Positions 897 to 59,588 of a stretch of 64,000 nucleotides of DNA are shown here, in pieces. The notes under the pieces were generated by a model. That model was not told the DNA's origin, made no database searches, and was given only the letters and a program-made list of their open reading frames with translations. This DNA is from Streptomyces bacillaris. Its GTDB lineage: Bacteria; Actinomycetota; Actinomycetes; Streptomycetales; Streptomycetaceae. Where the stretch lies: the NCBI RefSeq assembly GCF_003268675.1, contig NZ_CP029378.1, positions 3,472,001 to 3,536,000 of the forward strand, read 5' to 3'. The position numbers were made by a program, and so were the translations under genes. Every line of letters begins with the position of its first letter. The stretch's first letter is position 1.

Positions 897-1484
897 ATGA
901 CCCCCAGCCCCGCCGATCACGCACCACGGGCCCAGCTGTCCGTCGAGGAGTTCGAGCAGCTCGCCCGCTCGGCCCCGGAGACCGTGACGCTTGAGCTCAT
1001 CAACGGAAAGCTAGAGGTCAAGCCCGTGCCCGACGGCGACCACGGAACCATCTTCATGTGGCTGCTCCGCCAGTGCATGCAGCATCGGCCCGACCTGGAC
1101 CTGCATCCGGAGCAAGGGCTGATGGTCGAGGCGTACCGGCAGGGGCGGGCCCGTCCCGACGGCGCCCTGGCCCCTCGCCGGCACTTCGCCGGACAGGGCG
1201 AGTGGGCACCCGCCGACGGCGTTCTGATGACCGTGGAAGTGACCTCCTACGACTACGACACCGATCACCGCGACCGCACGGAGAAGCCCCACGGATACGC
1301 CTCGGCGGGCATCCCGGTCTACCTCCTGATCGACCGCGACTCCGGCACCCTCGTCGTCCACAGCGAACCCGACCGAGGTCGCTACCGGCAGCAGCACTCG
1401 TACGACTACGGGGACCGGGTGACGCTTCCCCACCCCGTCTCCATCACCCTGGACACCGAGGAGCTCAAGGACTACGCCCGCTGA
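897..1484 (+). CDS. Uma2-family (DUF820) putative endonuclease
   Basis: The protein has 195 residues and the PD-(D/E)XK-type layout of Uma2 proteins, which are greatly expanded in Streptomyces and of uncertain biological role. Candidate catalytic residues are D88 (in RPDGAL), E114 (in VEVTS) and K130 (in DRTEKPHGY), followed by the usual GIPVYLLID strand. The ATG at 897 is preceded by a strong ribosome-binding site (GGGAGGAGG) about 8 bases upstream, which decides the start even though the frame is open further upstream. It lies 56 bases after the preceding gene on the same strand and is convergent with the lasso operon, whose last gene ends 5 bases away. The family call is secure; its substrate is not known. 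Confidence 0.85.
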   Translation: MTPSPADHAPRAQLSVEEFEQLARSAPETVTLELINGKLEVKPVPDGDHGTIFMWLLRQCMQHRPDLDLHPEQGLMVEAYRQGRARPDGALAPRRHFAGQGEWAPADGVLMTVEVTSYDYDTDHRDRTEKPHGYASAGIPVYLLIDRDSGTLVVHSEPDRGRYRQQHSYDYGDRVTLPHPVSITLDTEELKDYAR

Positions 1485-1488
1485 CCCC

Positions 1489-3897
1489 TCACCGCGCCCC
1501 CGCCTCCACTCCTTCCGACACCGCCGCGAGCTGCGTCGTCGCCAGTTCGCGGTAGAGGTCGTCCCCGGCCATCAGCTCCTCGTGCGTGCCCGCCGTGCGG
1601 ACGCGGCCGTCCTCCAGGACCACGATGCGGTCGGCGTGGCGGACGGTGGAGAGGCGGTGGGCGATGACCAACACCGTGGACCGTGCGGCCAGTTCGAGGA
1701 TGACATCGCGCAGTGCCTGTTCGTTGACCGCGTCGAGCTGCGAGGTCACCTCGTCGAGGAGGAGCAGGCGCGGGCGGCGCAGCAGGGCGCGGGCGATGGC
1801 GATGCGCTGGCGTTCGCCGCCTGAGAGGGTGACGCCCCGGTGGCCGACCGCCGTGTCCAGGCCCTCGGGCAGGCGGGCGACCAGGGCGTCCAGACGGGTG
1901 CGGGTGACCGCCTCCGTCAGCCGCTCCTCGGGGGCGTCGGGGGCCGCGAAGAGCAGGTTCTCGCGGAGGGTGCCCGCCAGGACCGGGGCGTCCTGCTCCA
2001 CGTACGCGAGCGAGGCGCGCAGCTCCGCGAGGGGCCAGTCCCTGATGTCCCGGCCGTCCAGCGCGATGGTCCCGGTGTCGTGGTCGTAGAACCGTTCCAG
2101 CAGGCTGAACACCGTCGACTTGCCCGCCCCCGACGGGCCCACCAGCGCCACCATCCCGCCGGCCGGGACCTCGAACGTGACGCCCTTGTGGGCCGGGGCG
2201 CGCTCGTCCCCGTACCCGAAGGTGACCTCCTGGAAGGTGACCTGGAGGGGGGTGGTGGTGCCGCCTGTCTTCGCGCGGCCCGTGGCCCCCGCCGGTTCGC
2301 CCGGCAGCGACTCCACCTCGTCGATCCTCCGTACGGCGGCGAGGCCGCTCTGCAACCCCGTCCACCCCTCCACCAGGCCGCCGATCGGGCCCATCAGGTA
2401 GAAGAGGTAGAGCAGGAACGCGATCAGCGAGGAGATCTCCAGGGAGCCCGACGCCACCCTCGCCCCGCCCACACCCAGCACGGCCAGGAAGGCGAGCTGG
2501 ATCGACATCATCATCGTGACGTCGGAGACCGACGACCACTTCGCCACCGACACACCCCGGTCGTGCGCGTGCCGGGCCGCCCGCGCGACCGCCGCCGTCT
2601 CCCGCTCCTCCGCGCCGCTCGCCTTCACCGTACGGAACGCCTGGAGCACCCGGTCCAGGGCCGCGCCCATCGCTCCCACGGACTCCTGCGCACGGAGCTG
2701 CGCTCGCTGAATACGCGGCATGAGCAAGGCGGTTACGGCTCCGATGCCGACGATCACCACCAGCGTCACGCCCAGCAGCGTGAGGTCCATGTACGCCATG
2801 AACGCGACCGTCCCCAGCAGCATCAGCACGCTGTTGAACGACTCGACCAGGCCGCTGGAGAGGACCGTCCGGAGGAGGGTCGTGTCACTGGTCACGCGGG
2901 ACTGGAGGTCGCCAGGGGTCAGGCGGTCCACCGCCGGGACCTTCAACCGCATGATCCGGCCCACCAGTTGGTCGCGCGCACGGAGGACGACGCCCTCTCC
3001 CGTACGGGCCATGAGGTAACGCCCGTACGCGGAGAGGCACGCACCCGCGAGGACGAGCGCGGTGAGCGCGATGAGCGGGGCCACGGGCGATCGGTCGGCG
3101 GCGAACGCGTCGACCGCGTACTTCGCCATCAGCGGCATCGCCAGCCCGGCCGCCGACCCGGCGAGCGAGAGCAGGCCCGCCCGGATCAGGACGCCCCGGT
3201 GCGGGCGGACCCGGGCGAGGAGCAGGCGGAGGGGGGAGGGGCCGGACGTGCCATCCGTGCCGGTGGCGCCGGTCGCGTCGGCCATACGGGTCGCGCCGGG
3301 GTCGCTCGCTTCGGAGAGTGGTGCGCTGGCCTCAGGCGCCCCAGACCCTCCCGGCCGCTCAGCTGCCCCAGGCCCTTCCGGCCCCCCAGGCGCCCCAGGC
3401 CCTCCCGTCCGCTCCTCAGGGCTCCTGTCCGCCCCCGCCCCGCCCCCGTCGTCGTCCCCGCCACCGCGCTCACCCGGAACCCCCTCGCGTACCGTCACCA
3501 CCATCAGAGGACGCAGATCGGCCGCTTCCGCCTGTTCGCCGACCGTGCGGCCCCCCGCCTCCACCCAAGCATGCGGCGAGAACGGCGGCGCCGTCCGGAC
3601 CCCGGCGCACCAGTCGGGCCACGCTCCCGACATCCGGCACGCCAGCGCGATGGCCACCGAGCGGGGCAGGCAGCCGTAACGGCCCGCGCAGCGGCGGCTG
3701 GTGGCGGTGACGGCCTCGTACATCTCCAGCGTCTCGTCGTACGTCGCCGGGCGGGCGCCCCTGCTGCAGCGGGTCAACACCCGGCGCAGGCGGCCCGGTT
3801 TGAAGCGGGCGAACACGAACGCGGCGGCGATCGCGGCCCGCAGCCGTACGCCTCCCGGGCCCGCACCCCGGCGGGGCATGGTCATCTCGGTGGTCAT
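1489..3897 (-). CDS. Lasso peptide B2 protease fused to ABC exporter (B2-D fusion)
   Basis: This 802-residue protein joins two lasso functions. Residues 1-135 are the transglutaminase-like leader protease (B2), with the expected cysteine C76 in RYGCLPRS and histidine H109 in PHAWVE. Residues about 141-220 are a Gly/Pro/Ala-rich linker. Residues about 221-530 are a six-helix ABC transmembrane domain. Residues about 550-790 are the ATPase: Walker A GPSGAGKST (587-595), signature LSGGE (691-695), Walker B LLLLDE (711-716) and H746. The ATG at 3897 overlaps the stop of the B1 gene by 4 bases (ATGA), implying coupled translation. B2 and exporter are usually separate genes in lasso clusters, so the fusion could channel leader cleavage into export. 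There is no stop codon in the linker; an in-frame ATG at linker residue 205 could also permit a separate exporter. Confidence 0.9.
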   Translation of the reverse strand: MTTEMTMPRRGAGPGGVRLRAAIAAAFVFARFKPGRLRRVLTRCSRGARPATYDETLEMYEAVTATSRRCAGRYGCLPRSVAIALACRMSGAWPDWCAGVRTAPPFSPHAWVEAGGRTVGEQAEAADLRPLMVVTVREGVPGERGGGDDDGGGAGADRSPEERTGGPGAPGGPEGPGAAERPGGSGAPEASAPLSEASDPGATRMADATGATGTDGTSGPSPLRLLLARVRPHRGVLIRAGLLSLAGSAAGLAMPLMAKYAVDAFAADRSPVAPLIALTALVLAGACLSAYGRYLMARTGEGVVLRARDQLVGRIMRLKVPAVDRLTPGDLQSRVTSDTTLLRTVLSSGLVESFNSVLMLLGTVAFMAYMDLTLLGVTLVVIVGIGAVTALLMPRIQRAQLRAQESVGAMGAALDRVLQAFRTVKASGAEERETAAVARAARHAHDRGVSVAKWSSVSDVTMMMSIQLAFLAVLGVGGARVASGSLEISSLIAFLLYLFYLMGPIGGLVEGWTGLQSGLAAVRRIDEVESLPGEPAGATGRAKTGGTTTPLQVTFQEVTFGYGDERAPAHKGVTFEVPAGGMVALVGPSGAGKSTVFSLLERFYDHDTGTIALDGRDIRDWPLAELRASLAYVEQDAPVLAGTLRENLLFAAPDAPEERLTEAVTRTRLDALVARLPEGLDTAVGHRGVTLSGGERQRIAIARALLRRPRLLLLDEVTSQLDAVNEQALRDVILELAARSTVLVIAHRLSTVRHADRIVVLEDGRVRTAGTHEELMAGDDLYRELATTQLAAVSEGVEAGAR

Positions 3898-4145
3898 GGG
3901 CGCAGGATCTTCGCCTCGACGAGCTGACGGGTCAGCTCGGCCACGTCCGACTCCGCCTCGGCCCGCTCGACGTCGAACTCCGCGACGATCCGGTCGACGG
4001 CCGCCTCGGAGGTCTGCCCGGCGGCGAGGGCCTCGACCACGATCACGCTGGTGTCGTTCAACTGCCAGTAGCTGCCGTCCTTTTCGTCGAGCAGGACTCC
4101 GCCGTACTCGGTCGTCGTGACGGCGATGCCTTTTCTGAGCTTCAC
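3894..4145 (-). CDS. Lasso peptide B1 protein (PqqD-like RiPP recognition element)
   Basis: This is an 83-residue PqqD-like protein. Features typical of the stand-alone RRE of lasso clusters are the DEKDGSYWQLNDTS core, a helix with VDRIVAEFDV and a C-terminal helix ending LVEAKILRP. By family knowledge it binds the leader peptide (YxxP motif of the precursor) and delivers it to the B2 protease. The start is GTG at 4145, which overlaps the stop of the cyclase gene (GTGA), and its own stop overlaps the ATG of the B2-exporter fusion (ATGA). The whole cassette is therefore a tightly coupled operon. Confidence 0.9.
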   Translation of the reverse strand: MKLRKGIAVTTTEYGGVLLDEKDGSYWQLNDTSVIVVEALAAGQTSEAAVDRIVAEFDVERAEAESDVAELTRQLVEAKILRP

Positions 4146-6103
4146 TGGAGTGCCTCGCTGGTGGTGGTCGTGGGGGTCAACTGGGGTGTGGGCCAGGCGT
4201 TTTCCACTGTGCGGAGCCAGGTCTCCCCGGCCACGGTGGAGCTGATGGAGTGCTCGACCAGGACCGGCGAGAAGGGTTCGGCCGCCAGGCGGAGCAGGTG
4301 GCGGGCGTCCACCAGCCCGTGTTCGGCCAGGCGGGAGCCGGTCCACAAGTCGGCCAGTTCGTGGGCGTGTTCGCGGAGTCCCTGGTGTTCGTCGGAGGAC
4401 ATGTGGTCCTTCGTCGTACGGGCCAGCAGCGCGTCCGGCACCACCCCGCGCATCGCCTCGACCAGCAGCGGCTTGTAGCGCCAGGGGCTGATCCGCTCCG
4501 GGAGGCGTACGGCGAGGGTGGCCTCCAGGACCCGGTCGTCGTAGAAGGGGGCCGCGACCGGCAGCCCGATCGTCATGCCGATGTCCTCCATCGCCTGGAA
4601 GTGCCGCGCCCCCATCCGTACCGCGTCGATGTCCACATGCCGCCCCCGCCACCGGTCGATCGGCTCGGCCCGCTCGGCGGCGGTCCGGAACTCCTCGGTG
4701 ATCAGGGTGCGAGCGTGGTCCGTGAACCAGGGGCGCAGGGACTGGCGGACGCCCCAGGAGAGCAGCGGGGTGCGGGTGACCGGCTGGGGTTCGGTGGTGA
4801 CCGCGCCCGCCAGCCACTGCGGGAAGGCGGAGCGGTTCAGCAGGGCCTTGAGGGTGGGGAGCAGGGGCCAGCCGAGCTGGTGGCGCAGGCCGCTGAGGTG
4901 GTTCCAGGCGGTGAGGGGGTTGCCGTGGAAGAGGTCCTGGTAGGCGTGGGGCAGGCCGAGGAAGAGTTCGTCGCCGCCGTAGCCGGTGAGGTGGTAGCGC
5001 GATCCGGTGGCGTGGGCGCGGCTCAGGAGCAGGTGCGCGCGGGCGCGGCCGGGGGCGACGGGGAGCGGTTCGTCGTTCAGTTCGGCCGAGGTGGCGGCCA
5101 AGTCCGCGTAGAAGTACGGGGCTTGGTCGGCCGGGATGATGTGGTGGGCCAGGGCGTCCGTGGGGCCGTGTGCCGCCTCCACCGCCCTTCTCGCCCACAT
5201 CTCGTCCTCGCTGTAGCGGTCCCGGGCGGCCACGGTGAGCAGCGACAGCTCCGCGCGGCCGGTCGCGCGGGCGGCGAACGTGAGGGCCGTGGAGTCCAGG
5301 CCGCCGGAGAGTTCGCAGCTGATCCGGTCCAGGCCGCCGACATGGGCCCGTACGGAAGCGGCGACGGCCTCCCCGACCCTGCGGGCGCCCTCCGCCAGGG
5401 AGAGTTCCGGCGGCGGGGGCTCCCACCAGCGGTACTCGCGAGGGCCGGGGGCGGCGGCCGTGCCCGGTGCTGCGACGGGCAGGGCCAGTCCGTACCCGGC
5501 CCCGGTCTCGTGCACGCCCCGCCACAGGGCGCGTCGGCTCAGGGGGTGCGGCAGGAAGTCGAGCATGCGCAGGGCCAGCGCGCCGTCGTCCAGGGGGGCG
5601 CCGGTCAGGTGGGCCAGGACGGCCGGGCGGTCCGAGGCGATGGTCCCGGCCTGCGGGTGCCGGGCGTGGTAGATCCGGCGCAGCCCGGAGGCGGTGCCCC
5701 GGATCCAGGTCTCGCCGGAGAGGTGCGCGATGACGTGGTGGAGGCCGGGGAGCCGGGCGAGGCGCCGTTCCAGCGCGGCCCGGTCGCGGGCGCCCTCCAG
5801 GAGACCGGCGAGCACGGCCTCGGGGACGCGGTCGGGGCCGATGAGCACGAGGGCGTCGTCGCCCCGGCGGAGGTGGCTGACCTTGCGGAACAGGGGGCGC
5901 GCGAGGACCCAGGGGCGGCCGGAGGGGTGCGGGACGGTCACGACGTCACCGGCCCCGGTCACCGTAGGGGCGGACGCGGCCCCGGTCATCGTCGGGGCGG
6001 TCCCGGCCCCGGTCGCCTCCGGTGCGGGAAGCTGCCCGGCCACCGTGTGGCCCGCCACGCTGTCCGGCAGGACGACGAAGTAGTCACGCAGCAGGCCGGG
6101 CAT
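4142..6103 (-). CDS. Lasso peptide cyclase (asparagine-synthetase homologue, C protein)
   Basis: This 653-residue protein matches lasso cyclases, which adenylate the ring Asp/Glu side chain and close the isopeptide bond to the core N-terminus. The PPi-loop SGGLDS is at residues 266-271 and GYGGDELF at 374-381. The N-terminal glutaminase-like half lacks the Cys2 needed for glutamine hydrolysis, as expected for lasso cyclases. ATG at 6103 is preferred over GTG at 6109 because the ribosome-binding site (GAAAGG) lies immediately before the GTG and 5-6 bases before the ATG. Residues 32-52 hold a degenerate repeat (TAPTMTGA, SAPTVTGA) matched by a roughly 24-base DNA repeat, probably a slippage insertion. 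The gene lies 50 bases after the precursor stop. Confidence 0.93.
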   Translation of the reverse strand: MPGLLRDYFVVLPDSVAGHTVAGQLPAPEATGAGTAPTMTGAASAPTVTGAGDVVTVPHPSGRPWVLARPLFRKVSHLRRGDDALVLIGPDRVPEAVLAGLLEGARDRAALERRLARLPGLHHVIAHLSGETWIRGTASGLRRIYHARHPQAGTIASDRPAVLAHLTGAPLDDGALALRMLDFLPHPLSRRALWRGVHETGAGYGLALPVAAPGTAAAPGPREYRWWEPPPPELSLAEGARRVGEAVAASVRAHVGGLDRISCELSGGLDSTALTFAARATGRAELSLLTVAARDRYSEDEMWARRAVEAAHGPTDALAHHIIPADQAPYFYADLAATSAELNDEPLPVAPGRARAHLLLSRAHATGSRYHLTGYGGDELFLGLPHAYQDLFHGNPLTAWNHLSGLRHQLGWPLLPTLKALLNRSAFPQWLAGAVTTEPQPVTRTPLLSWGVRQSLRPWFTDHARTLITEEFRTAAERAEPIDRWRGRHVDIDAVRMGARHFQAMEDIGMTIGLPVAAPFYDDRVLEATLAVRLPERISPWRYKPLLVEAMRGVVPDALLARTTKDHMSSDEHQGLREHAHELADLWTGSRLAEHGLVDARHLLRLAAEPFSPVLVEHSISSTVAGETWLRTVENAWPTPQLTPTTTTSEALQ

Positions 6104-6153
6104 CTTCACCTTTCGGAAGTTCTCACACCGTGCGCGGGGAACCGGTCGGCGGT

Positions 6154-6285
6154 TCAGATGATGCGCCGGACCCAGTACTCCTTGTACGAGCCGTAGAAGT
6201 AACCGGCGGTCTTCTTCGAAAAGTCGCCCTGCTTGAACAGCGACGGCTTCATGTAGGCCTTCTTGGCCTTCTCCTGCTGCTTCAT
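6154..6285 (-). CDS. Lasso peptide precursor (A), 27-residue leader and 16-residue core
   Basis: The 43-residue peptide has the class hallmarks. The leader contains YMKP (the YxxP motif read by the RRE) and ends KKTA, with threonine in the penultimate position. The predicted core is GYFYGSYKEYWVRRII: Gly1 and Glu9 would close a 9-residue macrolactam, leaving a 7-residue tail with Trp11 and two arginines; there is no cysteine, so this is a class II lasso peptide. The ATG at 6285 has a strong ribosome-binding site (AAGGGAAGG) just upstream, and an upstream in-frame extension lacks one. From memory the core resembles SRO15-2005 of S. roseosporus but is not identical; this needs a database check. 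It is the first gene of the operon A-C-B1-B2/D. Confidence 0.93.
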   Translation of the reverse strand: MKQQEKAKKAYMKPSLFKQGDFSKKTAGYFYGSYKEYWVRRII

Positions 6286-6315
6286 GACACCTTCCCTTCT
6301 GTGCGGTTGACGACC

Positions 6316-6342
6316 GTTATGCCCAACAGCTGTTCGCATAAC
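6316..6342. promoter_or_regulatory. Inverted repeat in the lasso operon leader region
   Basis: Arms GTTATGC (6316-6322) and GCATAAC (6336-6342) flank the perfect 10-base palindrome AACAGCTGTT (6325-6334). The element lies 31-57 bases upstream of the precursor start in an unusually AT-rich patch. It could be an operator, part of the promoter or a 5' UTR stem-loop. Confidence 0.5.
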
Positions 6343-6359
6343 TGGAGTTATTGGTGCGG

Positions 6360-6384
6360 CTGGTGTTCACCAGGTGATCACCAG
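6360..6384. promoter_or_regulatory. 25-base near-perfect palindrome, candidate operator of the lasso operon
   Basis: Left half CTGGTGTTCACC and right half GGTGATCACCAG surround one central base; 11 of 12 positions pair. Internally it is two tandem GGTG-NN-CACC sites. It lies about 75 bases upstream of the lasso precursor ATG, where a repressor or activator would be expected. No regulator gene is encoded in the cluster, so the binding protein would be located elsewhere. Confidence 0.5.
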
Positions 6385-33014: not shown

Positions 33015-34315
33015 GTGGAGTACGTGATGGAGCAGCGCAGCGGTTCGGCGGAGGGGGACGGTACGGCCGTCGGCCCCGACCCCGACGCGCGCTGGCTCGC
33101 GCTCCTCATGCACGCCGCGTTCTTCCTGCTGCTCGGTGCCTCGCTGACCAGGTTCCTGATGCGGCACCCCGGCGAGGCCCGTACGCCGTGGATCATCGCG
33201 CTGTCGATCACCCTGGCCGTGCTGTATCTGCTGGGGCCCGTCCTCGGCTCGCGCCCCACCCCGCGCCGGGTGGCCTGGCTCGGGGTCCTGGTCGCCGTCT
33301 GGATGGTGCTGGTCGTGCTGGCGCCGAGCTTCGCGTGGTGCGCGGTGCCGCTGTTCTACACCGGGCTGCGCATTCTGCCGCCGCGCGCGGCGCTCGCGCT
33401 GGTCGCCCTGCTCACCGCGTTCGTGGTGGCCGCCCAACTGCGCCTGGCCACGGGGTTCGACCCGAACCTGGTGCTCGCCCCGCCCGCCGTGGCGGCCGTC
33501 GCCACCGCCGTCTTCGTCCATATGCAACGGCAGGCCGTACGGCAACGGGAACTGGCGGCCCGTCAGCGCGAGCTGATCGACGACCTGCTGCGCACGCGGC
33601 GCGAACTGGCCGCCACCGAGCGGCGCGAGGGCACCCTCGCGGAGCGTCAGCGGCTCTCCATGGAGATCCACGACACGCTGGCGCAGGGCCTGTCCAGCCA
33701 GCAGATGCTGCTCCAGGCGGCCGATCGCACGTGGGACGCCGACCCGGAGGCGGCCCGTCGCCATGTCCGTACGGCCACGGGCATCGCGGAACGCAACCTC
33801 GCGGAGGCCCGCCGCTTCGTCCACGACCTGGCCCCGGCCGATCTGGCGGAGGGCGGCGGCCTGGAGGCGGCCCTGCACGCACTGGCGGCCCGTGAGACGG
33901 CCCAGGCGGAGGGGCCCTGACCGTCCGCTGCCATGTGGAGGGCACGCCGTACGCGCCCCTGCCGGACCGGGTGCAGTCCGCGCTGCTGCGGATCGCGCAG
34001 GGGGCTCTCGCGAACGTACGGGAGCACGCCGACGCCACCGCCGCCGGGCTGACCCTGACCCACCTGGGCGACCGGGTGGTCCTGGACATCGGGGACAACG
34101 GCCGCGGGTTCACGCCGGAGCCCGGCGCCCCGCGCACGACGGGCGCCGTACGGGGCCACGGTCTCCCGGCGATGCGGGCCCGTGTGCACCAGCTCGGCGG
34201 GACGCTGACGATCGAGTCGGCCCCGGGCGAGGGCACGGTGCTCTCGGCCGGAATCCCGCTCACCACGCCACAGGACCCCGCAGAAGGCCCCATGACCACG
34301 GAGGACCCCACATGA
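33015..34315 (+). pseudogene. SenS-like sensor histidine kinase broken by a one-base frameshift
   Basis: The 5' part (33015-33920, 301 codons) encodes five or so membrane helices and the HisKA_3 dimerisation region with the phospho-acceptor histidine in RLSMEIHDTLAQGLSS, then hits TGA. The rest (about 33917-34315) is in the +2 frame and encodes the HATPase domain: QGALANVREHADA (N box), DIGDNGRGF and GHGLPAMRARV. One inserted base in the CCC run at 33915-33917 restores a single open kinase of about 433 residues. As given, the kinase lacks its ATPase. The 3' part still overlaps the response-regulator ATG (ATGA), so the original operon structure is visible. Start GTG 33015 or ATG 33027. Confidence 0.85.
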
Positions 34316-46045: not shown

Positions 46046-46127
46046 GGCGGCCGGATCGGGGGCACCGGGCGGCGGGTGCTGGGAGCGGGGGCGCCGATGG
46101 CAATGCGGCGTCTTCCGTCGCGGTGAA

Positions 46128-46406
46128 TCACTCATGGCGAAGGAATTCGGGAACGCCTTCGGTCGACAGCGGGTCATCCAGCAACCGCACAGGCATGCCT
46201 TCCGGCGCCCGGACCCGCGACACGAGGACACCGCGGAGGCAGGCGGCGCACCATAGGAGCGCGTACCCGACTCGGGTATCGGGGTTGACGATGAAGCGGA
46301 CCTGGAGCCTGGGCAGGCCGCAATCCGGACACTCACCCAGATGCGGTCGGCCTTGCTGCCCGGACGCCTGAGCCAGCACTCGCAGCCAATTCGAACGGTC
46401 GGCCAT
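46128..46406 (-). CDS. Small zinc-ribbon protein, 92 residues
   Basis: The protein begins MADRSNWLRVLAQASGQQGRP. It has two CxxC pairs (ECPDCG and WCAACL), giving a likely zinc ribbon, and ends GVPEFLRHE. ATG 46406 is preceded by AAGGGTGGG at a suitable distance. It lies downstream of the toxin/immunity island on the same strand and may belong to that island, but no function is known. Confidence 0.65.
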   Translation of the reverse strand: MADRSNWLRVLAQASGQQGRPHLGECPDCGLPRLQVRFIVNPDTRVGYALLWCAACLRGVLVSRVRAPEGMPVRLLDDPLSTEGVPEFLRHE

Positions 46407-46760
46407 CAGCCCACCCTTCCGTTGAAGTGGCTCAAGAACTGGTCTTCGGAGGCGTACGCCGCTCGCTACCAAGCGGCTTCCTTTTCAAGTGACTTCGGCT
46501 TGCCAAATGCCTGAAGCTGCATGACGCACAAGCGCTCGTGCTCAATCGTCCTGACCAATGAGGTGTGACGGTAAAGCCGCCTACCGATCAGGCCCACACC
46601 ACGGTTGGTCTAGGCCCTCATTCCTTCGAGACCCCACGGGCCTGTCGCGCCGTCCTGTCGACCACACGCTTCTGCACGGAGACAGGGGCAACGAAGTCGC
46701 CAGTGTCGAAGGGCCTACGTGACAGCCTTGCGGATGCACGTATCAATCCGCTCGCACCGG

Positions 46761-47249
46761 TCAGTCCTCTTCACAGATGTCCTCCGGCAACAGGTGCCGC
46801 GCTGTCGCCAGCAGCCGCTCCAGCCGCGCCGGAACCGTCTCCACATCCTGCAGAAGCCAGTACGCGTAGGCTGCAGTGCCTTTGGCCCAGCCGGATAGCA
46901 CCTCCTCGTACAGAGCCCAGGTGCCAGCTCGCACCTCCTTTCTGCACTCCTCTGCGATTCCTTCGTCATCAACGACGGTGAGAGAACTGAGAAGTTCAAG
47001 AAACCGATGGCGGGCCGAAGGAGAAATACCACGGTCGGCCAGCCCGGCCATGAGCACCCGTGCAACGGGAACCGCAGTCTTCGTCGTCCAGCTGTCCTGG
47101 ATCACGTGGAAGTCAATACCGCGCGGTTCAGCCTCCTCCAGTGTCCTGGCACGGGCCATCCGCAACAGATCTCCTGGCACATGCGCGGCTGATGGGCACT
47201 TGCGGCAGGGGAGCGCGGACCAGTCGTACAGCCCGATCTCCAACTCCAT
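46761..47249 (-). CDS. Second immunity-like protein, paralogue of the Rhs immunity protein
   Basis: The 162-residue protein is clearly related to the one at 47622-48128. Both begin MELEIGLYDWSALPC, share SAAHVP, ARVLMAGLADR and LLATARHLLP, and end EED. The two cysteines of the N-terminal CRKC/CRSC pair are conserved, possibly for metal. Its role is inferred from position: next to the Rhs toxin's own immunity gene and directly behind an orphan toxin-tip fragment. It may protect against a toxin variant, or be a relic. ATG 47249 is used; GTG 47267 is an alternative. Confidence 0.75.
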   Translation of the reverse strand: MELEIGLYDWSALPCRKCPSAAHVPGDLLRMARARTLEEAEPRGIDFHVIQDSWTTKTAVPVARVLMAGLADRGISPSARHRFLELLSSLTVVDDEGIAEECRKEVRAGTWALYEEVLSGWAKGTAAYAYWLLQDVETVPARLERLLATARHLLPEDICEED

Positions 47250-47265
47250 CGTCGTGATTGCCTTC

Positions 47266-47547
47266 ACCTGCCCAGTATCCCAACTCGTCCCACAAGCCAA
47301 CCGACTCCTCTTCTACGCCGGGTTCAAACTGGCCGGGGGACGGGTAGTCAAGCTGACACTTCAGGCCGCCTTTCTCCGGCCCCGCGACAACAGTGTCATC
47401 CGGCTGACGGCTCGCGTTGTACGCGATGGTGAACCGTACCTTCGTGGGGTCGCCGCCGAGCGCGTGCACGACGTTGCCCTCGGCACAGTAGCTGAGCCCG
47501 GTTTTACAGCCGCCCGACTGGGCGAGGGCAACGTCTCCCGTATCAAT
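47266..47547 (-). pseudogene. Orphan Rhs toxin-tip (deaminase-like) fragment
   Basis: The frame from about 47547 repeats the C-terminal toxin tip of the neighbouring Rhs protein almost exactly at first (TGDVALAQSGGC, YCAEGNVVHALGGDPTKVRFTIAY) and then diverges. It has no upstream Rhs shell, no start of its own and no clean stop before the downstream immunity gene. In the second zinc motif the first cysteine is lost (EKGGLKCQ against VKPVCKQCQ), so it should be inactive. This is a displaced tip cassette, as known from Rhs/CDI loci that swap toxin ends by recombination. Confidence 0.8.
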
Positions 47548-47562
47548 CCGCTCACACAGAGA

Positions 47563-47603
47563 ACGGGCAGGACCTCGCTTCGTCGGCATGAGGTCCTGCC
47601 CGT
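47563..47603 (-). terminator. Hairpin terminator after the first immunity gene
   Basis: Perfect 14-base arms ACGGGCAGGACCTC and GAGGTCCTGCCCGT enclose a 13-base loop, 18 bases beyond the stop at 47622. Confidence 0.85.
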
Positions 47604-47621
47604 CACTCCGCCCGCCGCCGG

Positions 47622-48128
47622 TCAGTCCTCCTCGTAGAGGTCATCCGGCAGCAGGTGTCGCGCTGTCGCGAGGAGACGGTCCACGCGGGCCGGGTTGGTC
47701 TCCGCGTCCTTCAGGAGCCAGTAGGCGAGAAGGGCGCTTCCCTTGGAGTCACCGGACAGGATCTCCTCGTACAGGGCCCAGATACCGCCTTTGACCGCGT
47801 CCAGGCACTCAGCGGCAAGGTCCTCGTCATCCACGATGACGAACGACCAGAGGAGGTCCAGGAACTGGTTCCGGGCCACCGCCGAGACACTCCGGTCGGC
47901 CAGGCCGGCCATCAGCACCCGGGCAACCGGGACAACCGTCGGTGTCGCCCAGCTCTCCTGGAGCACGTGGTACTCAATGGCTTTCGGCCTGGCCTCCTCC
48001 CGGTTCTGCGCACGGGCCATCCGCAGCAGTTCCGCGGGGACGTGCGCGGCTGACGGACAGCTGCGGCAGGGGAGCGCGGACCAGTCGTACAGTCCGATCT
48101 CCAACTCCATGGTGTTCATTGTTCTCAT
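47622..48128 (-). CDS. Putative immunity protein of the Rhs toxin
   Basis: The 168-residue protein is small, acidic and helical, and starts only two bases after the stop codon of the giant Rhs gene, the usual place for the immunity gene that protects the producer from its own toxin tip. It begins MRTMNTMELEIGLYDWSAL and contains CRSC near the N-terminus. I do not recognise the family, but its paralogue next door shows it duplicates together with toxin tips. Start ATG 48128, 48119 or 48110. Confidence 0.82.
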   Translation of the reverse strand: MRTMNTMELEIGLYDWSALPCRSCPSAAHVPAELLRMARAQNREEARPKAIEYHVLQESWATPTVVPVARVLMAGLADRSVSAVARNQFLDLLWSFVIVDDEDLAAECLDAVKGGIWALYEEILSGDSKGSALLAYWLLKDAETNPARVDRLLATARHLLPDDLYEED

Positions 48129-48130
48129 CC

Positions 48131-51100
48131 CTAGAAGAACTGGTGCCCCCAGATGCCGCCTTCCTCAGCAACGACACCTGACTCGAACTGGAACGGTGAC
48201 TGGTAGTCCACCTGGCACTGCTTGCACACGGGCTTCACCTCGACCGTGCGTACACCGTCGTCGAATTTCACGGTGTACGCGATGGTGAACCGTACCTTCG
48301 TCGGGTCGCCGCCGAGCGCGTGCACGACGTTGCCCTCGGCACAGTAGCTGAGCCCGGGTTTGCAGCCGCCCGACTGCGCGAGGGCGACGTCTCCCGTCTC
48401 GATGTTGTAGCCGCCCGCGTATGTCTTGGACGCCTTCCTCTTGGAGGCGTGCTTGAGGGCGAAATCGGCCACCTGGGACGATGCCTTCTCCATCTGCCCG
48501 GCGTGTGTCCAGCCGGCCGGAGCCTTCTGGACCTCCACCACGGGCGCGCTCTTGCCGCCCACTCCGCGTGCGCTGACCCGCGGTGGCGGAACGACCCTCG
48601 GCGCGACCTTCGGTGGCGCCGCCTTCTGCGTCGTGCCGGAGAACAGCCTGCCGAGGGCTCCCTTGACGACCTTGCTGACGCTGCCGGGCTTGGACAGCAC
48701 CTTGCCGCCGCCGCCCGCTCCGGCAGCACCGGGGAAGAACGGCGTGAGGAACTTGCCGACCCAGTAGGAGACCTTGTACCAGGCTCCGCTCTGGTCCGGG
48801 CCGCGGACGGTCTTGTAGAGACTGATCGGGCCCTTGCCCGCGCGGTCGTTCTTGATCTTCTGGGCGTTGCCCTCGGTCCAGCCCAACCGGTCGGTCCACG
48901 TGTAGACGCTCTCGGCCAGGTCGTAGTAGCCGTCGACGACACCGTTCTTGAGGCCCTTGGCAACCTGCTTGCCCTTGGAAGCGAGCTTGTCCAGCCACTT
49001 CCACTGGCCGGTGCTGTCGCTGAAGGTGACCGGGGAGTTCTCCGCGTACGCGTAGCCGTTGAGCTGCTGCGGATCCGTCAGGTCCATGATCGGGTCGACG
49101 CTCAGGAAACGGCCCGTCGACGGGTCGTACTCCCGGGCACCCAGATGGGTCAGCCCTGTGTCGCTCGTGTCGTCGGTGCCGTCGACGAACCCCTTGCTGC
49201 CCACCCACGGGACCGGAGCCACGCCCCGGGCGCCGCCGAACGGCAGGGTGCGCCGCTGCGACAACGCCTGGGTGGCGGCGTTCACGGAGAGGAGGCCGGT
49301 GCCCTGGTGGTCGGCGAGAGTGAAGGTGACGGAGCCGTCGTCCTCCTTGACCGCCTGGTTGCCTCCGCCGAGCGGGGTGTAGCGGGTCGCCTTGGCCTTG
49401 GCCGCGCCCTTGTCGAGGGTCACCTCGGTGTGGCCGAGGTACAGCGTGCTCTTCGAGCCTGTACGCCCGATGAGGCGGTTGCCCCCGGTGTCGTACAGGT
49501 ACTCGGTCACCTTGCTGCCGCCGCCCGACGTAGGCTCCGTGACCTTGGCCAGGTGGCCCTCGGCGTCCCAGGTGAGCTGCTGGGAGGCGTCGCCCCGGGG
49601 GCGGGCCGTCGTGTTGCCGATCTCGTCGTAGGAGTAGTCGTCCTGGGTGGTGGTGCCGTCGGGCAGCCGGGTCGAGACCGAGGTCAGGCCGTGCGGACGG
49701 GCGCTGCCCGGAGCCGGGTAGCTGTAGGTCCGCAGGGTGTCCTTGGCGCTGTCGCCGGAGACGTCGTGCAGGGTCTCGGAGAGGCGGTTACCCGTCTTGT
49801 CGTACGTGAAGGACTGCCAGTACGGTGCCGGGCCGCCGACCGTCCCGGCACCGGGCGCCGTGGCGCAGGTCTTGTCACCCTGCGTCCACGCCTTGGTCAG
49901 CCGCTGCAGATGGTCGTAGTCGAAGCACTGGGTGTCGGTGCCGGACCTGGAGGTGTCCGAGATCGACAGGATGTTGCCCAGGTCGTCATACCGATAGGTG
50001 TTGAACCGGTCGACGCCTGCCACGTCCTGGCGGTCCACCCGCGAGGTCGCGACCCGCTGGGTGCCCCACTCGTAGGTGTTGGTCACCTGCACCGGCTTGG
50101 CGCCGGGGGCGGTGCCGGACATCCGCTGCTGGAGCGGCTTGCCCGTCGAGGAGTACACGGTCTCCGCCGTGAACCCGTCACCGAGGAGCCCGGTCGGCCG
50201 CAGCGTGTCGGGGGCATAGCTGACGGTGTGGCTGCCGCCCGGCAGCGAACCGGCTGCCGAGTAGCTCACGGTGCTGGGCAGGCCGGAGGGGAGATAGGCG
50301 GTGCCGGTCTGATACGTGCCCGCGAGGGCGCCCTCCTGGGAGGGGATCACCACGGCGGTCCTGACCGGGCGGTAGAGCCGGTCGTACTGGGTGACCTTCG
50401 AGGTGTACTCGGCGCCGTTCACATAGCGCGTGGACTGGGCGAGTTGGCCCTTGGCACCGCTGATGGTGTCGTAGGTCCACTTGGCACGCAGGGTGCCGGT
50501 GGCGGAGCCGTCGCGCAGCTCGGTCTGGCGGCCCAGCCCGTCGTACACGTGCGCCAGGACGGTGCCCCGGGCGTCCTTGGTGGTGGTGAGCTGGCCCCGG
50601 TCGTCGTACGTACGGGTGGTGACACCCCGGTCGGGGTCCTCCGTCCGGACCTCATGGCCGCGCTGGTTGTAGGCGTACTTCCAGGAGTTGCCCGCCGGGT
50701 CGGTGACCTTGGCGAGTTCGCCCCGGGTCGTGTACGCGTAGGTGGTGGTGTCGTAAGGCGCGTCGGCGCTGCGCGAGTGGTGCTGGCGCAGCTCGGTCAC
50801 CAGACCACGGGCGTCCGCGATCGCGGTCGTGGCGGTGCCGCCCTCCGGCGGAATCACCGTGGTGCGGTCGCCGCCGTAGGTCTTCCGGGTGACCGCGAGT
50901 ACGGCGCCCCCGTCACCGTTTCCGGCGATGTCCTTGATCTCGGTCTCGCGGCCGAGGCCGTCGTAGACGTATCTCGTCTGGGTTTCGACGGTGAGGGCAT
51001 CGGCGGGTTTGAACAGACCGCGGCCGGGCGGCTCCTGGTCGTTGTAGTACGGAGCGAAGGTCTTGGCTGTCAGGCCCCGCTCGTCGTAGAAGACATCCGT

Positions 51101-54100
51101 GAGGATCCGGCCCCCATCCGGTCCTGGCTCCTGTACCTGGCGCTCCCGCAAGAACCCGTCGTACAGCGTGTAGGAAGAACGCTGGCCGCCCTTGTTGTCG
51201 AGGGTCCGGGTGCGGATCGCGACGGGCTTGTCCGCGTCGATGAAGTAGGTGAACTCGTAGCTCGGAGTCTGGTCGGTCCGTCGGTCGGCAAGCCAGATCC
51301 GGCTGATCCGGCCGAGCGCGTCGAAAGAGAACTCGGATCGTTTGCCGTTCGTGTCCACCTGTGCGGCGGGGCGACCGCGCACCGGGTCGAACTCGGTCAC
51401 CACGTTCTGCGCCGTCGCCGGGGTGCCCGCGGTGGCGGGCGGTGTCGTCTCCGTGACCTTGGCCGGGAAGCCGGTCGCGGGACTGTAGGCGGTGGTCGTC
51501 GTACGTCCGTCGGTGCGTGCGGTGCGGGCGGGCTGGCCCGTGCCGGTCACGGTGACGTCCGACGTCAGGTCGGTGGTGCTCAGGCGTCGGCCGTAGGAGT
51601 CGAACGTCGCCTTGGACTCCAGGTAGACGGCCTTGGTGCCGTCGTGGCTCTTGAGCGTGGCCGACGCGGTTGCGTCACCCTTGGTCGGAGCCGCGCCGTA
51701 CTCCCCGCCGTCGTAGGCGGTCCGGACGTCGGAGACCACGTCCTTGGAGCGGTCCGGCGTGGCGGAACAGGACCTGGTGACCGTCTCCTCCCTGGAGGGG
51801 AGGGTGATGATGCCGGTGCTGCCGCCGGCGTAGGTGGTCCGGGTGCAGCGGTCGTCGGACGGGGTGGTCGGGTCCCCCAGGTCCTCGGTCATGGTGACCC
51901 GCCCGGCCACCGTGTCGTAGGTGTTCCTGGTCTCGCTGACGCTCCAGGACTTCCCCGCACCGTTGTCCAGGGAGGTCCAGGAGGTGGACCGGGCGGTGCC
52001 GGTCAGGTTGGAGGTGACGGTGCCCCAGGTGCGGGTCTTCCTCGCGGTCTCGTGGTACCAGGGCCGGTCCACCGACTTCGACAGGATTTTGCCGTCGACG
52101 CCTGAGTGGACGACCGTCTTGTAGGCGAAGCCCGCCACCGACTCGTGGTCGGTGATGGGGTCTCCCTCACCACTGCCCAGAGTGACGGAGACCTTCTTGG
52201 TGCCGCCCGAGGTGGATTCCCTGTCGCCGTCCATGCCGCGCAGGAAGTAGCTGTCCTGCTGCGTCCTCAGGGCTGCCTGGCCGCCCTGACCGCCGGTCTT
52301 GACCCGGACCTGGCCGTAGCCGCGCCACTGGGACCAGGTCTTGTGCTTCTCCTTCGTCAGGCCGTCGTCATCGTCGTAGTGCCAGGCCGCGTCACCGAGG
52401 TACTCGTACTGGGTCACGCCGTCGGGCGCGCCGCCGGTGCGGTCGGTCTTGGTGGTGGAGGTGACGACGTACTTGTTGAACCACTGCCGTTCGGGCGCGG
52501 CGTCGGCGTCGCCGCCGATGAACTGCGGGTAGCAGCGGGTGCCGTTCTTCTCGGGCGTGGGCAGCCTGTCCCAGGAGCAGACGGGGTCCGAGTAGTTGAT
52601 GTCGACCTGGCCGCCGTACTCGTCGGTGACGGTGGACAGCCGGGACTTGACGAAGGGCGCGTAGCCGTCACCGATCCGGTCGAGCCGGTTGGCCCGCTGG
52701 GTGTAGGCGAAGCTGGTCTTCGGCAGGGTGACCGCCGGGGTGGCGGTGTGACCGGTGCGCTGGACGGAGTCCAGGAGCAGCTGGTAGTCGATGTCGGCCT
52801 GGCCCCAGCGGTGGCCGAGCTTCCAGGAGTCGACGTCCGTGTACGCGCTGCCCTTCAGGACCTGGGTGGTGATCCCGGTCAGGCGGTCACGGGTGAAGAA
52901 GACGGGGGACAGCCGGCCCCTGTCGCAGTCCTTGCCCTCCGCGCAGTGCAGGTCCCAGGGCGTGTCGTACCAGTAGAAGGCGTCCTTGTCGATCGACTTG
53001 CAGTCAGTGTTGGCGTCGGGCAGGCAGCGCTCGGAGGTCGCGAAGTTCACCTTGCCCAGCGCCTTGGCGCTGTAGGCGGAGCCGTCCTTCAGGCCGTACT
53101 CGATCCGGTCCAGCGAACCGCCGCGCACGTACGGCGTGTTGTCCTTGGCCTTGAGGTTACGGCCGTAGGCGTTCTTCTCCTGGTCGTAGTAGTAGGCGAC
53201 CGCGTTGCCATGCGGGTCCACGACATAGTCGAGGTTCCAGCGCCAGCCCTGCTGGCACCAGGAGTCCGCGAAGGCCGCCTTGTGGCAGGGCTCCCCGCTG
53301 TTGTTGCCGAAGACCGGAACCGTCCACGTGGAATCGGTGGTCTCCTTGCCGCTGCTCCAGCCGGGCAGCCGGTTGTAGCCGAAGTAGTAGTGCACGCCGT
53401 CGGGGTCGGTGAGCCGCCAGTACTCGCCGTCGTTGTCACCGTTGCCGCGGTCGGCGGAGCGCAGCCGGGTGATCCGGGTGCCGTCGTCCTGCTTGAGGCG
53501 GAACTCGTCGTCGCCCGTCGGGACCAGCTCACCACCCTTTCCGTTGAAGGTGATGAACGCGTTGTCGTAACCCCAGCACAGGTCCGCCGGCTTGTTGCCG
53601 TCCGCGTTCTTGACACCGTCGTCGTAGCACGGCTTGTAACGCCGCTCAATATAGCCGGACCACAGGTCGAAGCCGTCGCCCACCCAGGACGACTGGTTGT
53701 TGGTGGTACCGGTGCGCCCGTCGATCTGACCCGAGTTGTACGACAGGCCGAGGTCCGGCGTGAGCCCGCCGGGCACGTCGGGCACCGGGATGTCATAGGA
53801 CCAGCTGAAGTCACCGGTGTTGAGGTTGGTGTCCCAGGACGCGGACGGAGAGAGCTTGGTGGCGGTGAAGTCCCCCGTCCCGGCGGTCTCCGCGGCCATG
53901 GCGGCGAGGACCGTGAGGCCGGAGGACCGCAGGGCGACCGAGGAGGCGGTGAGGGTCCTCCGTTCGGTGTCGTTGACCGTCGGTACCGGGGTGATCGTGC
54001 GGCATTCTTCCCGGGAGGGATCGTCCGCGGCACAGGCGGGCAGCTGGACGAGCGTCAGACGGGAGCCGTAACCACCGCCGTACGCCTCGGAGAAGGAGGA

Positions 54101-54676
54101 GTAGTCGACGGTGGCGTCCACTTTCCCAGGGCGGTCGTCCCGGCCGTCGCCCGCCTCCAGGGTGAAGAGCACCCCGTCGATCCCGACGCGTTCGGCCGCT
54201 CGGTGCCCGAGCACCTTGGCTTCGACGCGTCCCTTGGCGCCGACGGAGGCCCCCTGTGACGGCGCCTCGGTCGGGGCACTCCGGGCGGTGCCCGCGCCGT
54301 CGGCCGCCGCGCGTGGGGCGCTGACCGCGATCGGGAGCGAGCGGAGCTGTGTGGCGAGTCTGTTCGCGGCGGGCTCGCCCGGGGCCGGCGCGGCGGAGAC
54401 GCTGACAACCCGCTCGCCCGGCTCGGGCCAGGCGGCCCGGGGGGCGCCCTCCGGCGTCCTGGGTGCGTCAGCTGCGGAGCGCGGCTCGGCGCCGAAGATG
54501 TCCCGCCCCTTGACCGGCTTCTCGGCGGAGGGCAGACCGGGTAGGTCCCACCGCGGTGAGGGAGCCGCTGACGCGACTGCTCCCTGCATCACCGTGGCCA
54601 CCATGACGGTGGACAGGAACAAGGCCACTCTTCGTCGGGCCGCCAAAGGCGGGAGCAATTTGGATGTTATGGACAT
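48131..54676 (-). CDS. Secreted Rhs-repeat protein with C-terminal deaminase-like toxin tip
   Basis: The 2181-residue protein has a signal peptide (MSITSKLLPPLAARRRVALF, then AVASAAP). It continues with a SpvB/Rhs-type domain (SFSEAYGGGYGSRLTLVQLP, LSYNSGQIDGRTG), many YD/Rhs repeats, and the canonical Rhs core end RFLSVDPIMDLTDPQQLNGYAYAENSPVTFSDSTG. After about 230 residues of linker comes the tip with a zinc-deaminase motif pair: C2112-A-E2114 and C2151-K-Q-C2154. By analogy with polymorphic toxins it would be secreted, carried in the Rhs shell and deliver a nucleotide/nucleic acid deaminase to competitors. The deaminase subfamily is not assigned. ATG 54676 is chosen for the signal peptide. 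Confidence 0.88.
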   Translation of the reverse strand: MSITSKLLPPLAARRRVALFLSTVMVATVMQGAVASAAPSPRWDLPGLPSAEKPVKGRDIFGAEPRSAADAPRTPEGAPRAAWPEPGERVVSVSAAPAPGEPAANRLATQLRSLPIAVSAPRAAADGAGTARSAPTEAPSQGASVGAKGRVEAKVLGHRAAERVGIDGVLFTLEAGDGRDDRPGKVDATVDYSSFSEAYGGGYGSRLTLVQLPACAADDPSREECRTITPVPTVNDTERRTLTASSVALRSSGLTVLAAMAAETAGTGDFTATKLSPSASWDTNLNTGDFSWSYDIPVPDVPGGLTPDLGLSYNSGQIDGRTGTTNNQSSWVGDGFDLWSGYIERRYKPCYDDGVKNADGNKPADLCWGYDNAFITFNGKGGELVPTGDDEFRLKQDDGTRITRLRSADRGNGDNDGEYWRLTDPDGVHYYFGYNRLPGWSSGKETTDSTWTVPVFGNNSGEPCHKAAFADSWCQQGWRWNLDYVVDPHGNAVAYYYDQEKNAYGRNLKAKDNTPYVRGGSLDRIEYGLKDGSAYSAKALGKVNFATSERCLPDANTDCKSIDKDAFYWYDTPWDLHCAEGKDCDRGRLSPVFFTRDRLTGITTQVLKGSAYTDVDSWKLGHRWGQADIDYQLLLDSVQRTGHTATPAVTLPKTSFAYTQRANRLDRIGDGYAPFVKSRLSTVTDEYGGQVDINYSDPVCSWDRLPTPEKNGTRCYPQFIGGDADAAPERQWFNKYVVTSTTKTDRTGGAPDGVTQYEYLGDAAWHYDDDDGLTKEKHKTWSQWRGYGQVRVKTGGQGGQAALRTQQDSYFLRGMDGDRESTSGGTKKVSVTLGSGEGDPITDHESVAGFAYKTVVHSGVDGKILSKSVDRPWYHETARKTRTWGTVTSNLTGTARSTSWTSLDNGAGKSWSVSETRNTYDTVAGRVTMTEDLGDPTTPSDDRCTRTTYAGGSTGIITLPSREETVTRSCSATPDRSKDVVSDVRTAYDGGEYGAAPTKGDATASATLKSHDGTKAVYLESKATFDSYGRRLSTTDLTSDVTVTGTGQPARTARTDGRTTTTAYSPATGFPAKVTETTPPATAGTPATAQNVVTEFDPVRGRPAAQVDTNGKRSEFSFDALGRISRIWLADRRTDQTPSYEFTYFIDADKPVAIRTRTLDNKGGQRSSYTLYDGFLRERQVQEPGPDGGRILTDVFYDERGLTAKTFAPYYNDQEPPGRGLFKPADALTVETQTRYVYDGLGRETEIKDIAGNGDGGAVLAVTRKTYGGDRTTVIPPEGGTATTAIADARGLVTELRQHHSRSADAPYDTTTYAYTTRGELAKVTDPAGNSWKYAYNQRGHEVRTEDPDRGVTTRTYDDRGQLTTTKDARGTVLAHVYDGLGRQTELRDGSATGTLRAKWTYDTISGAKGQLAQSTRYVNGAEYTSKVTQYDRLYRPVRTAVVIPSQEGALAGTYQTGTAYLPSGLPSTVSYSAAGSLPGGSHTVSYAPDTLRPTGLLGDGFTAETVYSSTGKPLQQRMSGTAPGAKPVQVTNTYEWGTQRVATSRVDRQDVAGVDRFNTYRYDDLGNILSISDTSRSGTDTQCFDYDHLQRLTKAWTQGDKTCATAPGAGTVGGPAPYWQSFTYDKTGNRLSETLHDVSGDSAKDTLRTYSYPAPGSARPHGLTSVSTRLPDGTTTQDDYSYDEIGNTTARPRGDASQQLTWDAEGHLAKVTEPTSGGGSKVTEYLYDTGGNRLIGRTGSKSTLYLGHTEVTLDKGAAKAKATRYTPLGGGNQAVKEDDGSVTFTLADHQGTGLLSVNAATQALSQRRTLPFGGARGVAPVPWVGSKGFVDGTDDTSDTGLTHLGAREYDPSTGRFLSVDPIMDLTDPQQLNGYAYAENSPVTFSDSTGQWKWLDKLASKGKQVAKGLKNGVVDGYYDLAESVYTWTDRLGWTEGNAQKIKNDRAGKGPISLYKTVRGPDQSGAWYKVSYWVGKFLTPFFPGAAGAGGGGKVLSKPGSVSKVVKGALGRLFSGTTQKAAPPKVAPRVVPPPRVSARGVGGKSAPVVEVQKAPAGWTHAGQMEKASSQVADFALKHASKRKASKTYAGGYNIETGDVALAQSGGCKPGLSYCAEGNVVHALGGDPTKVRFTIAYTVKFDDGVRTVEVKPVCKQCQVDYQSPFQFESGVVAEEGGIWGHQFF

Positions 54677-54781
54677 AGAGGAGCGAATCCTTGGTTGTGA
54701 TCCGAGGCCGCGCGGCTGCGCACGGCCATGAGGACAAGGAAGAAAAAAGGAAGAGAAGAAACGGGACAGTGGAGCGGCACG

Positions 54782-54821
54782 GGATGCCGTGCTGTGGGCA
54801 CTGGCCCAGAGCACGGCATCC
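54782..54821 (-). terminator. Hairpin between the LamG and Rhs genes
   Basis: Perfect 12-base arms GGATGCCGTGCT and AGCACGGCATCC lie 28 bases beyond the LamG stop. Reading on, a pyrimidine-rich tract follows on the minus strand (54732-54770). It probably separates the two transcripts, so the Rhs gene may have its own promoter. Confidence 0.7.
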
Positions 54822-54848
54822 AGCCGGTACCGTTCGGCGGAGCGGTGC

Positions 54849-59129: not shown

Positions 59130-59588
59130 TCCCAATCCCCCCGCATCATGAATATTTTATGTATCCCTTATGAGCGACAGGAACCTAGCTCACGAACGGA
59201 CGTCCGGTCCAAGTCGTTCGCTTCCGGCCCACGCCGGCCTGCGCGACAACGGGCTCTACCCCATCAACTGCGGACACTTCCCTTCCGGTGAACCATGGGG
59301 CGCCCAAAGGGGAGTTCAGCCAAAGAGACGCGGCCGGCTGCAGGACCGGGTTCCAGCAACTCCCGGGAGATCCGACGATCAGGCCAGGAAGCCCATCCCC
59401 TGCGCTTCCCGCGGGCCTGCGACAGGGCTGGCATCCAGACACGGCGTGACCGTGCCTTCTGCCGAGCGGATGGCAGCACCGTTGCCTTGAAGGTGGGCGG
59501 GCCATTGGCAGGCGCACGCACCACGCATCCCGGACGGAGAGGAGGCCCCCCGACATGCCTCTCACCGAAGAGCGATCCGGAGAAGCAC
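59130..59588. other. Intergenic region upstream of the LamG gene
   Basis: The first 45 bases are AT-rich (AATATTTTATG patch near 59148-59162) and likely hold the LamG-Rhs promoter. The rest shows only weak frames without a ribosome-binding site; I recognise no gene. Confidence 0.4.

Follow-up and report, generated by a model that had tools for sequence, protein, structure and literature searches.

The window (the whole stretch of DNA analysed, 64,000 nucleotides from Streptomyces bacillaris) holds what we regard with high confidence as a complete class II lasso peptide cluster of the SRO15-2005/9810-LP family. The family is a known one, the core variant is shared by several species and the cluster is otherwise ordinary; its only point above routine is a possible fusion of the leader peptidase, B2, to the ABC exporter, D. 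It contributes one core variant to a lasso peptide family with detected products, for which no target was found in the literature passages that deal with the family.

Gene set and layout of the cluster

The ORF list and profile matches place the genes on the minus strand in the order A-C-B1-B2/D, at 1489-6285 of the window. The features, with the domains and the upstream element discussed below, are:

6154-6285, minus strand: precursor A, 43 aa, ATG start (Pfam DUF5972, E 2.5e-9)
6205-6285, minus strand: leader MKQQEKAKKAYMKPSLFKQGDFSKKTA, part of precursor A
6157-6204, minus strand: core GYFYGSYKEYWVRRII, part of precursor A
4142-6103, minus strand: lasso cyclase C, 653 aa, asparagine-synthetase-like (PF00733 Asn_synthase, E 4.4e-37)
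3894-4145, minus strand: stand-alone RRE protein B1, 83 aa, GTG start (PF05402 PqqD, E 4.1e-15)
1489-3897, minus strand: 802-aa ORF formed by B2, a linker and D (PF13471 Transglut_core3, E 4.3e-24; PF00664 ABC_membrane; PF00005 ABC_tran)
about 3502-3834, minus strand: leader peptidase B2 domain, inside the 802-aa ORF
about 3244-3459, minus strand: low-complexity linker, inside the 802-aa ORF
about 1489-3234, minus strand: ABC exporter D part, inside the 802-aa ORF
6360-6384, minus strand: palindrome CTGGTG(A/T)TCAC-N-GTGAACACCAG, conserved upstream of the precursor

The initial annotation had described a compact operon with 4-base overlaps; all of the genes are indeed present and such overlaps join cyclase to RRE (4142-4145) and RRE to peptidase (3894-3897), but precursor and cyclase are separated by a gap of 50 bases. 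Its assignment to the class II lasso clusters is borne out by family matches for all four proteins. DUF5972 is matched once in the whole 7.89-Mb genome and in none of 14 control genomes and, since the gene order and the core are also conserved in relatives, the locus is not a chance assembly of matches. The points that speak against a complete working cluster are the below-cut-off scores of C with the lasso-type models, its lack of a solved-structure relative and the missing exporter of one related locus (L048), all three given below, and the abnormal B2/D frame: if this frame is real and the fusion non-functional, the cluster would be crippled.

B1 scores 96.4 bits against the NCBIfam model lasso_PqqD_Strm (NF033530; cut-off 70), and by sequence its closest PDB match is TfuB1 (6jx3_B, E 4.3e-16), with TbiB1 (5v1u_A) at E 6.1e-4. 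B2 reaches 85.1 bits against PF13471 (cut-off 26); its GCLPR(S/T) and HAW motifs, the residues of which we take to be catalytic, align across the relatives. For C, the score is 129 bits against PF00733 (cut-off 21), 219.8 bits against the NCBIfam albusnodin/ikarugamycin cyclase model, below the cut-off of 300, and 44.9 bits against another of the nearest NCBIfam models, below the cut-off of 525; a PDB sequence search gave no solved-structure relative of C at E 0.001. Relatives of the cyclase occur in 38 plasmid records, all at less than 60% identity, and a search of viral contigs found no relative.

The cluster adjoins a gene for a putative Uma2-type endonuclease (897-1484, plus strand), homologues of which are found nearby in only some of the related loci. 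Farther along the window, a stretch at about 46053-59588 is unmatched in the corresponding syntenic region of two relatives and looks like an inserted Rhs-type locus; it contains two giant ORFs on the minus strand, one of 2261 aa with an RHS repeat (48131-54916) and one of 1428 aa with a Laminin_G_3 match (54849-59135).

Relatives of the cluster and variation of the core

Relatives were collected by a scan of named genomes (22 loci) and from an evenly drawn sample of 392 genomes of the genus, among which 15, S. bacillaris included, carry the precursor. The resulting 37 pieces (36 loci and the window), less 8 duplicates, correspond to 29 distinct loci. Among the 28 loci other than the window, C is present in 27, B1 in 26, B2 in 26 and D in 23, and the missing C, B1 and B2 genes fall at contig ends. 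In a broader sample of 296 genomes from the class, the leader family DUF5972 was found in 21, spread over 7 of 114 genera. One relative, L048 (Streptomyces sp. DH37), has A, C, B1 and B2 but shows no ABC exporter signature within 18 kb, including the 6 kb after B2.

The core GYFYGSYKEYWVRRII fits the family motif GYF-x-GSYKEYW-x-RRI, and the gene order is that of the family. We considered whether this core is limited to the S. bacillaris strain and rejected the idea, as it is encoded at six of the 29 loci: the window, S. californicus, S. fimicarius, Streptomyces sp. CB00316, S. cyaneofuscatus and one further genome. The SRO15-2005 core GYFVGSYKEYWSRRII is found at five loci and the 9810-LP core GYFVGSYKEYWTRRIV at three. 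In the 19 loci with Trp11, variation within the first 16 core residues is confined to positions 4, 12 and 16. Two precursors depart further: that of L029 (6110-6229 of the piece), distant but of the same leader family, has an 18-residue core, GWFMSKKSENLTWRIGGS, with Glu9 kept and a different tail, and that of S. microflavus JCM 4496 (L036, 8989-9114) has a core lengthened by a C-terminal Tyr (GYFVGSYKEYWVRRIVY), the sole 17-residue core among the 29 loci.

A literature search with core fragments, the scope of which left out most subscription journals, found no paper with the core GYFYGSYKEYWVRRII and returned only the papers on SRO15-2005 and 9810-LP. The view that the peptide is a new member of the family thus holds in part: no paper with the core was found, but four named public genomes encode an identical one. 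The further suggestion of a target of its own finds no support, as the core differs from that of SRO15-2005 by two substitutions, both at positions that vary in the family, and, in PMC5974421, the new lasso peptides of that study, 9810-LP among them, were inactive against six Gram-negative and Gram-positive species. Our guess is that the product serves as a narrow-spectrum antagonist or as a signal among related actinomycetes.

Predicted maturation, ring and thread lock

A putative ribosome site, GAAGGGAAGG, precedes the ATG of precursor A, and both site and start are kept in the aligned close relatives. The leader contains the motif YMKP, presumably the YxxP-type motif bound by the RRE, and has a Thr at position -2 (...KKTA-G), which is a feature of lasso precursors. 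The latter is described in PMC10885120, and PMC8745299 places the ring acceptor of lasso peptides at an Asp or Glu at core position 7-9. The core in the window has Gly1 and Glu9, and lacks cysteines, so that no disulfide is expected.

By analogy with known lasso systems, B1, the RRE protein, would bind the leader, which carries YMKP and the Thr at -2, and B2, a transglutaminase-like peptidase, would cleave after TA, ahead of Gly1. C would then activate Glu9 with ATP and join it to the amine of Gly1, closing a 9-residue ring round the tail YWVRRII, in which Arg13/Arg14 are the most probable residues to hold the thread, and D, the ABC exporter, would secrete the 2081.05-Da product. We infer cutting, cyclisation, topology and export in the S. 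bacillaris strain from the genes and their relatives. The mass computed for the mature product of GYFYGSYKEYWVRRII is M 2081.052, and M 2005.021 is obtained for both SRO15-2005 and 9810-LP; the calculation was checked on the 3+ ion of 9810-LP, for which it gives 669.348 against the published 669.35 (PMC5974421).

The Gly1-Glu9 ring proposed at the outset is supported by the alignment, since Glu9 is kept in all 29 cores, including the most distant, GWFMSKKSENLTWRIGGS. The same alignment corrects the earlier assignment of Trp11 as the plug: Trp11 is kept at 19 of the 29 loci, with Ile at 5, Phe at 3 and Leu at 2 of the others, whereas Arg13-Arg14 is kept at 28, and we therefore rejected Trp11 as the best-conserved candidate. 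When 9810-LP was treated with carboxypeptidase Y, the products ended at I15, R14 and Y10, and the authors took this to mean a lasso that R13-R14 stabilise but that is able to unthread in part; ion-mobility data on its topology were not obtained, the material being too little (PMC5974421). Family conservation and these carboxypeptidase data together make Arg13/Arg14 the better guess for the predicted thread lock, rather than Trp11.

The single reading frame of peptidase and exporter

B2 and D form a single 802-aa ORF in the window, a feature on which the initial annotation did not remark. The two are fused in none of the 23 relatives in which both genes are readable; the other five of the 28 could not be scored, as the contig ends first in L032, L037, L041 and L047, and L048 has no exporter in the 6 kb after B2. 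Relative to B2, D is in the +1 frame in 20 of the 23 relatives, in the +2 frame in two and, in one, in the frame of B2 itself but beyond a stop codon, and in close relatives the first start codon of D lies 47-86 bases inside B2. The linker between the flanking conserved blocks is longer in the window than in the nearest relatives by 11 or 14 bases, depending on the alignment; neither number is divisible by 3, and D is thereby shifted into the frame of B2. The single ORF hangs on the lengths of the G/C runs at 3431-3447. Two features of this region are of importance here:

3431-3447, minus strand: G/C-run repeat GGGGGC-GGGGC-GGGGGC in the linker, from alignments with relatives
3186-3473, minus strand: frame of the usual D start (GTG at 3473), 95 codons, stopping before D is reached

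Frame breaks were scanned for in 244 kb (the window and its flanks), about 172 kb of which aligned to one relative; alignments of fewer than 300 columns were dropped, and breaks were kept only if the substitution phase was clear on both sides. The scan flagged 5 entries in the S. bacillaris genome, of which two were, in our judgement, clean breaks and three fell where the alignment was poor; the linker insertion is absent from the flagged positions. One clean break is in a gene for a solute-binding protein (the family being taken from the copy of the relative), about 13 kb outside the window, where a C or G run is one base short. The other is in a sensor kinase gene (HisKA_3; window 33015-34315, plus strand), broken at 33916 by a one-base shortfall of a G run in comparison with two relatives, possibly a sequencing slip. 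In both, the protein is undecayed past the break, the sensor kinase resuming in another frame. As the side of the relative was flagged too (9 entries against 5), the scan is no clean measure of assembly error. In an earlier, cruder scan, comparison with two relatives had yielded 5 and 4 candidate two-frame ORFs, some of which may not be real genes.

Three readings of the frame were weighed, with probabilities that are our judgements and not computed odds. We think it rather probable that the fusion is an artefact, a G/C run of the linker being recorded one base short, and that B2 and D are overlapping genes, as in the relatives. The absence of a fusion from all 23 readable relatives points this way, as do the repeat units of 6, 5 and 6 bases, since three units of 6 would leave the frames unjoined, and the single-base shortfalls at G/C runs by which, over about 172 kb, two further conserved genes are broken while their proteins stay undecayed beyond the break. 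However, the assembly consists of one contig, with completeness estimated at 100% and contamination at 0%, and GGGGGCGGGGC stands at the linker site in the S. microflavus record as well. The clean breaks found in about 172 kb number only two, in a scan that flagged more entries in the relative, and natural slippage strikes the same kind of run.

Such slippage is the basis of the second reading, which we hold to be less probable: a slipped-strand insertion in the linker would have converted two overlapping genes into a single gene for a bifunctional leader peptidase/ABC exporter, as known for cochonodin I. Both domains are intact in the 802-aa frame, where they are joined by a Gly/Pro/Ala-rich linker, and a fused B2/D is a described lasso arrangement (PMC8745299; PMC10885120). 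Against it stand the signs of an artefact and the lack of a fusion in the scorable relatives; other B2/D fusions were also looked for, and in none of seven loci with long peptidase frames does the frame continue downstream into an exporter. Because the frame hangs on run lengths and the assembly contains other single-base breaks, we rate a sequencing slip no less likely than a genuine fusion. That the insertion is real, joined the frames very recently, while sister strains with the identical core keep separate proteins, and represents an independent origin of the cochonodin I arrangement, we consider doubtful. A real fusion would provide, in strains that share this core but have the two genes fused or unfused, a natural matched pair in which the effect of tethering on yield and self-protection could be tested.

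The last reading, in which the fused frame is real but export is broken and the cluster is on its way to a pseudogene, is very improbable: it would account for the 95-codon dead end at the usual D start and for the broken inner pair of the upstream palindrome, in which the window stands alone among 18 aligned loci, but neither C, B1 nor the precursor is damaged, all three closely resemble their counterparts in the relatives, and the fused frame keeps all of its domains.

A palindrome upstream of the precursor

The palindrome at 6360-6384 lies 74-98 bases upstream of the precursor start and is kept in close relatives (18 of the 29 loci aligned); it is also present in L020, the remaining close relative, and 10 more distant loci have no clear copy. 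The pattern has no other site in the genome with 0-1 mismatches, and in the window one arm base differs, which breaks the inner pair mentioned above. At one of the 10 pairs, A-U is replaced by G-C in five of the 18 loci and by G-U in two. The number of pairs changed on both sides was reached by 488 of 500 shuffles, however, and sliding the partners by -3 gave a covariation score of 0.088 against 0.093; these two controls leave the evidence for a hairpin weak. On sequence grounds, the palindrome may be an operator or an RNA 5' leader hairpin, and we list it as a candidate for either. A conserved hairpin between A and C was also considered and discarded, as the inverted repeat that follows the precursor stop in the window is, by eye, not kept in most of the sequences compared.

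Comparison with known lasso systems

The nearest described peptide, by our annotation as by the initial one, which had placed the core close to but seemingly distinct from SRO15-2005, is that Streptomyces product, with the core GYFVGSYKEYWSRRII in the table of PMC12427821. The two cores share 14 of 16 residues, the Gly1-Glu9 ring and the KEYW and RRII motifs, and the loci with the exact SRO15-2005 core have the gene order of the window. They differ at position 4 (Val in SRO15-2005, Tyr in the window) and position 12 (Ser and Val, respectively), the product of the window being 76 Da heavier, and B2 and D, which form one ORF in the window, are separate in all 4 readable of the 5 loci with the SRO15-2005 core.

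Another name in use, keywimysin, reportedly comes from work by Tietz et al. in 2017. It is an antiSMASH label for such clusters, and both labels have been given to one region of one strain (PMC9581153). Keywimysin thus appears to belong to the same cluster family, as judged by this label and not by the core sequence.

9810-LP, from Streptomyces sp. ADI98-10, has the core GYFVGSYKEYWTRRIV (Table 1 of PMC5974421) and was characterised by mass, MS/MS and carboxypeptidase treatment (PMC5974421). Its leader is nearly identical to that of the window and it has the Glu9 ring, whereas its core departs from ours at positions 4, 12 and 16.

For the peptidase-exporter frame, the closest parallel is the cochonodin I cluster of Streptococcus suis, in which the leader peptidase is fused to the N-terminus of the ABC transporter (PMC8745299; PMC10885120, both citing Hegemann et al. 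2021). The likeness lies in the fusion of peptidase and exporter, as in the 802-aa ORF of the window; the cochonodin I cluster, however, belongs to another phylum and the fusion is its described state, whereas the fusion in the family studied here is a doubtful one, found in a single genome.
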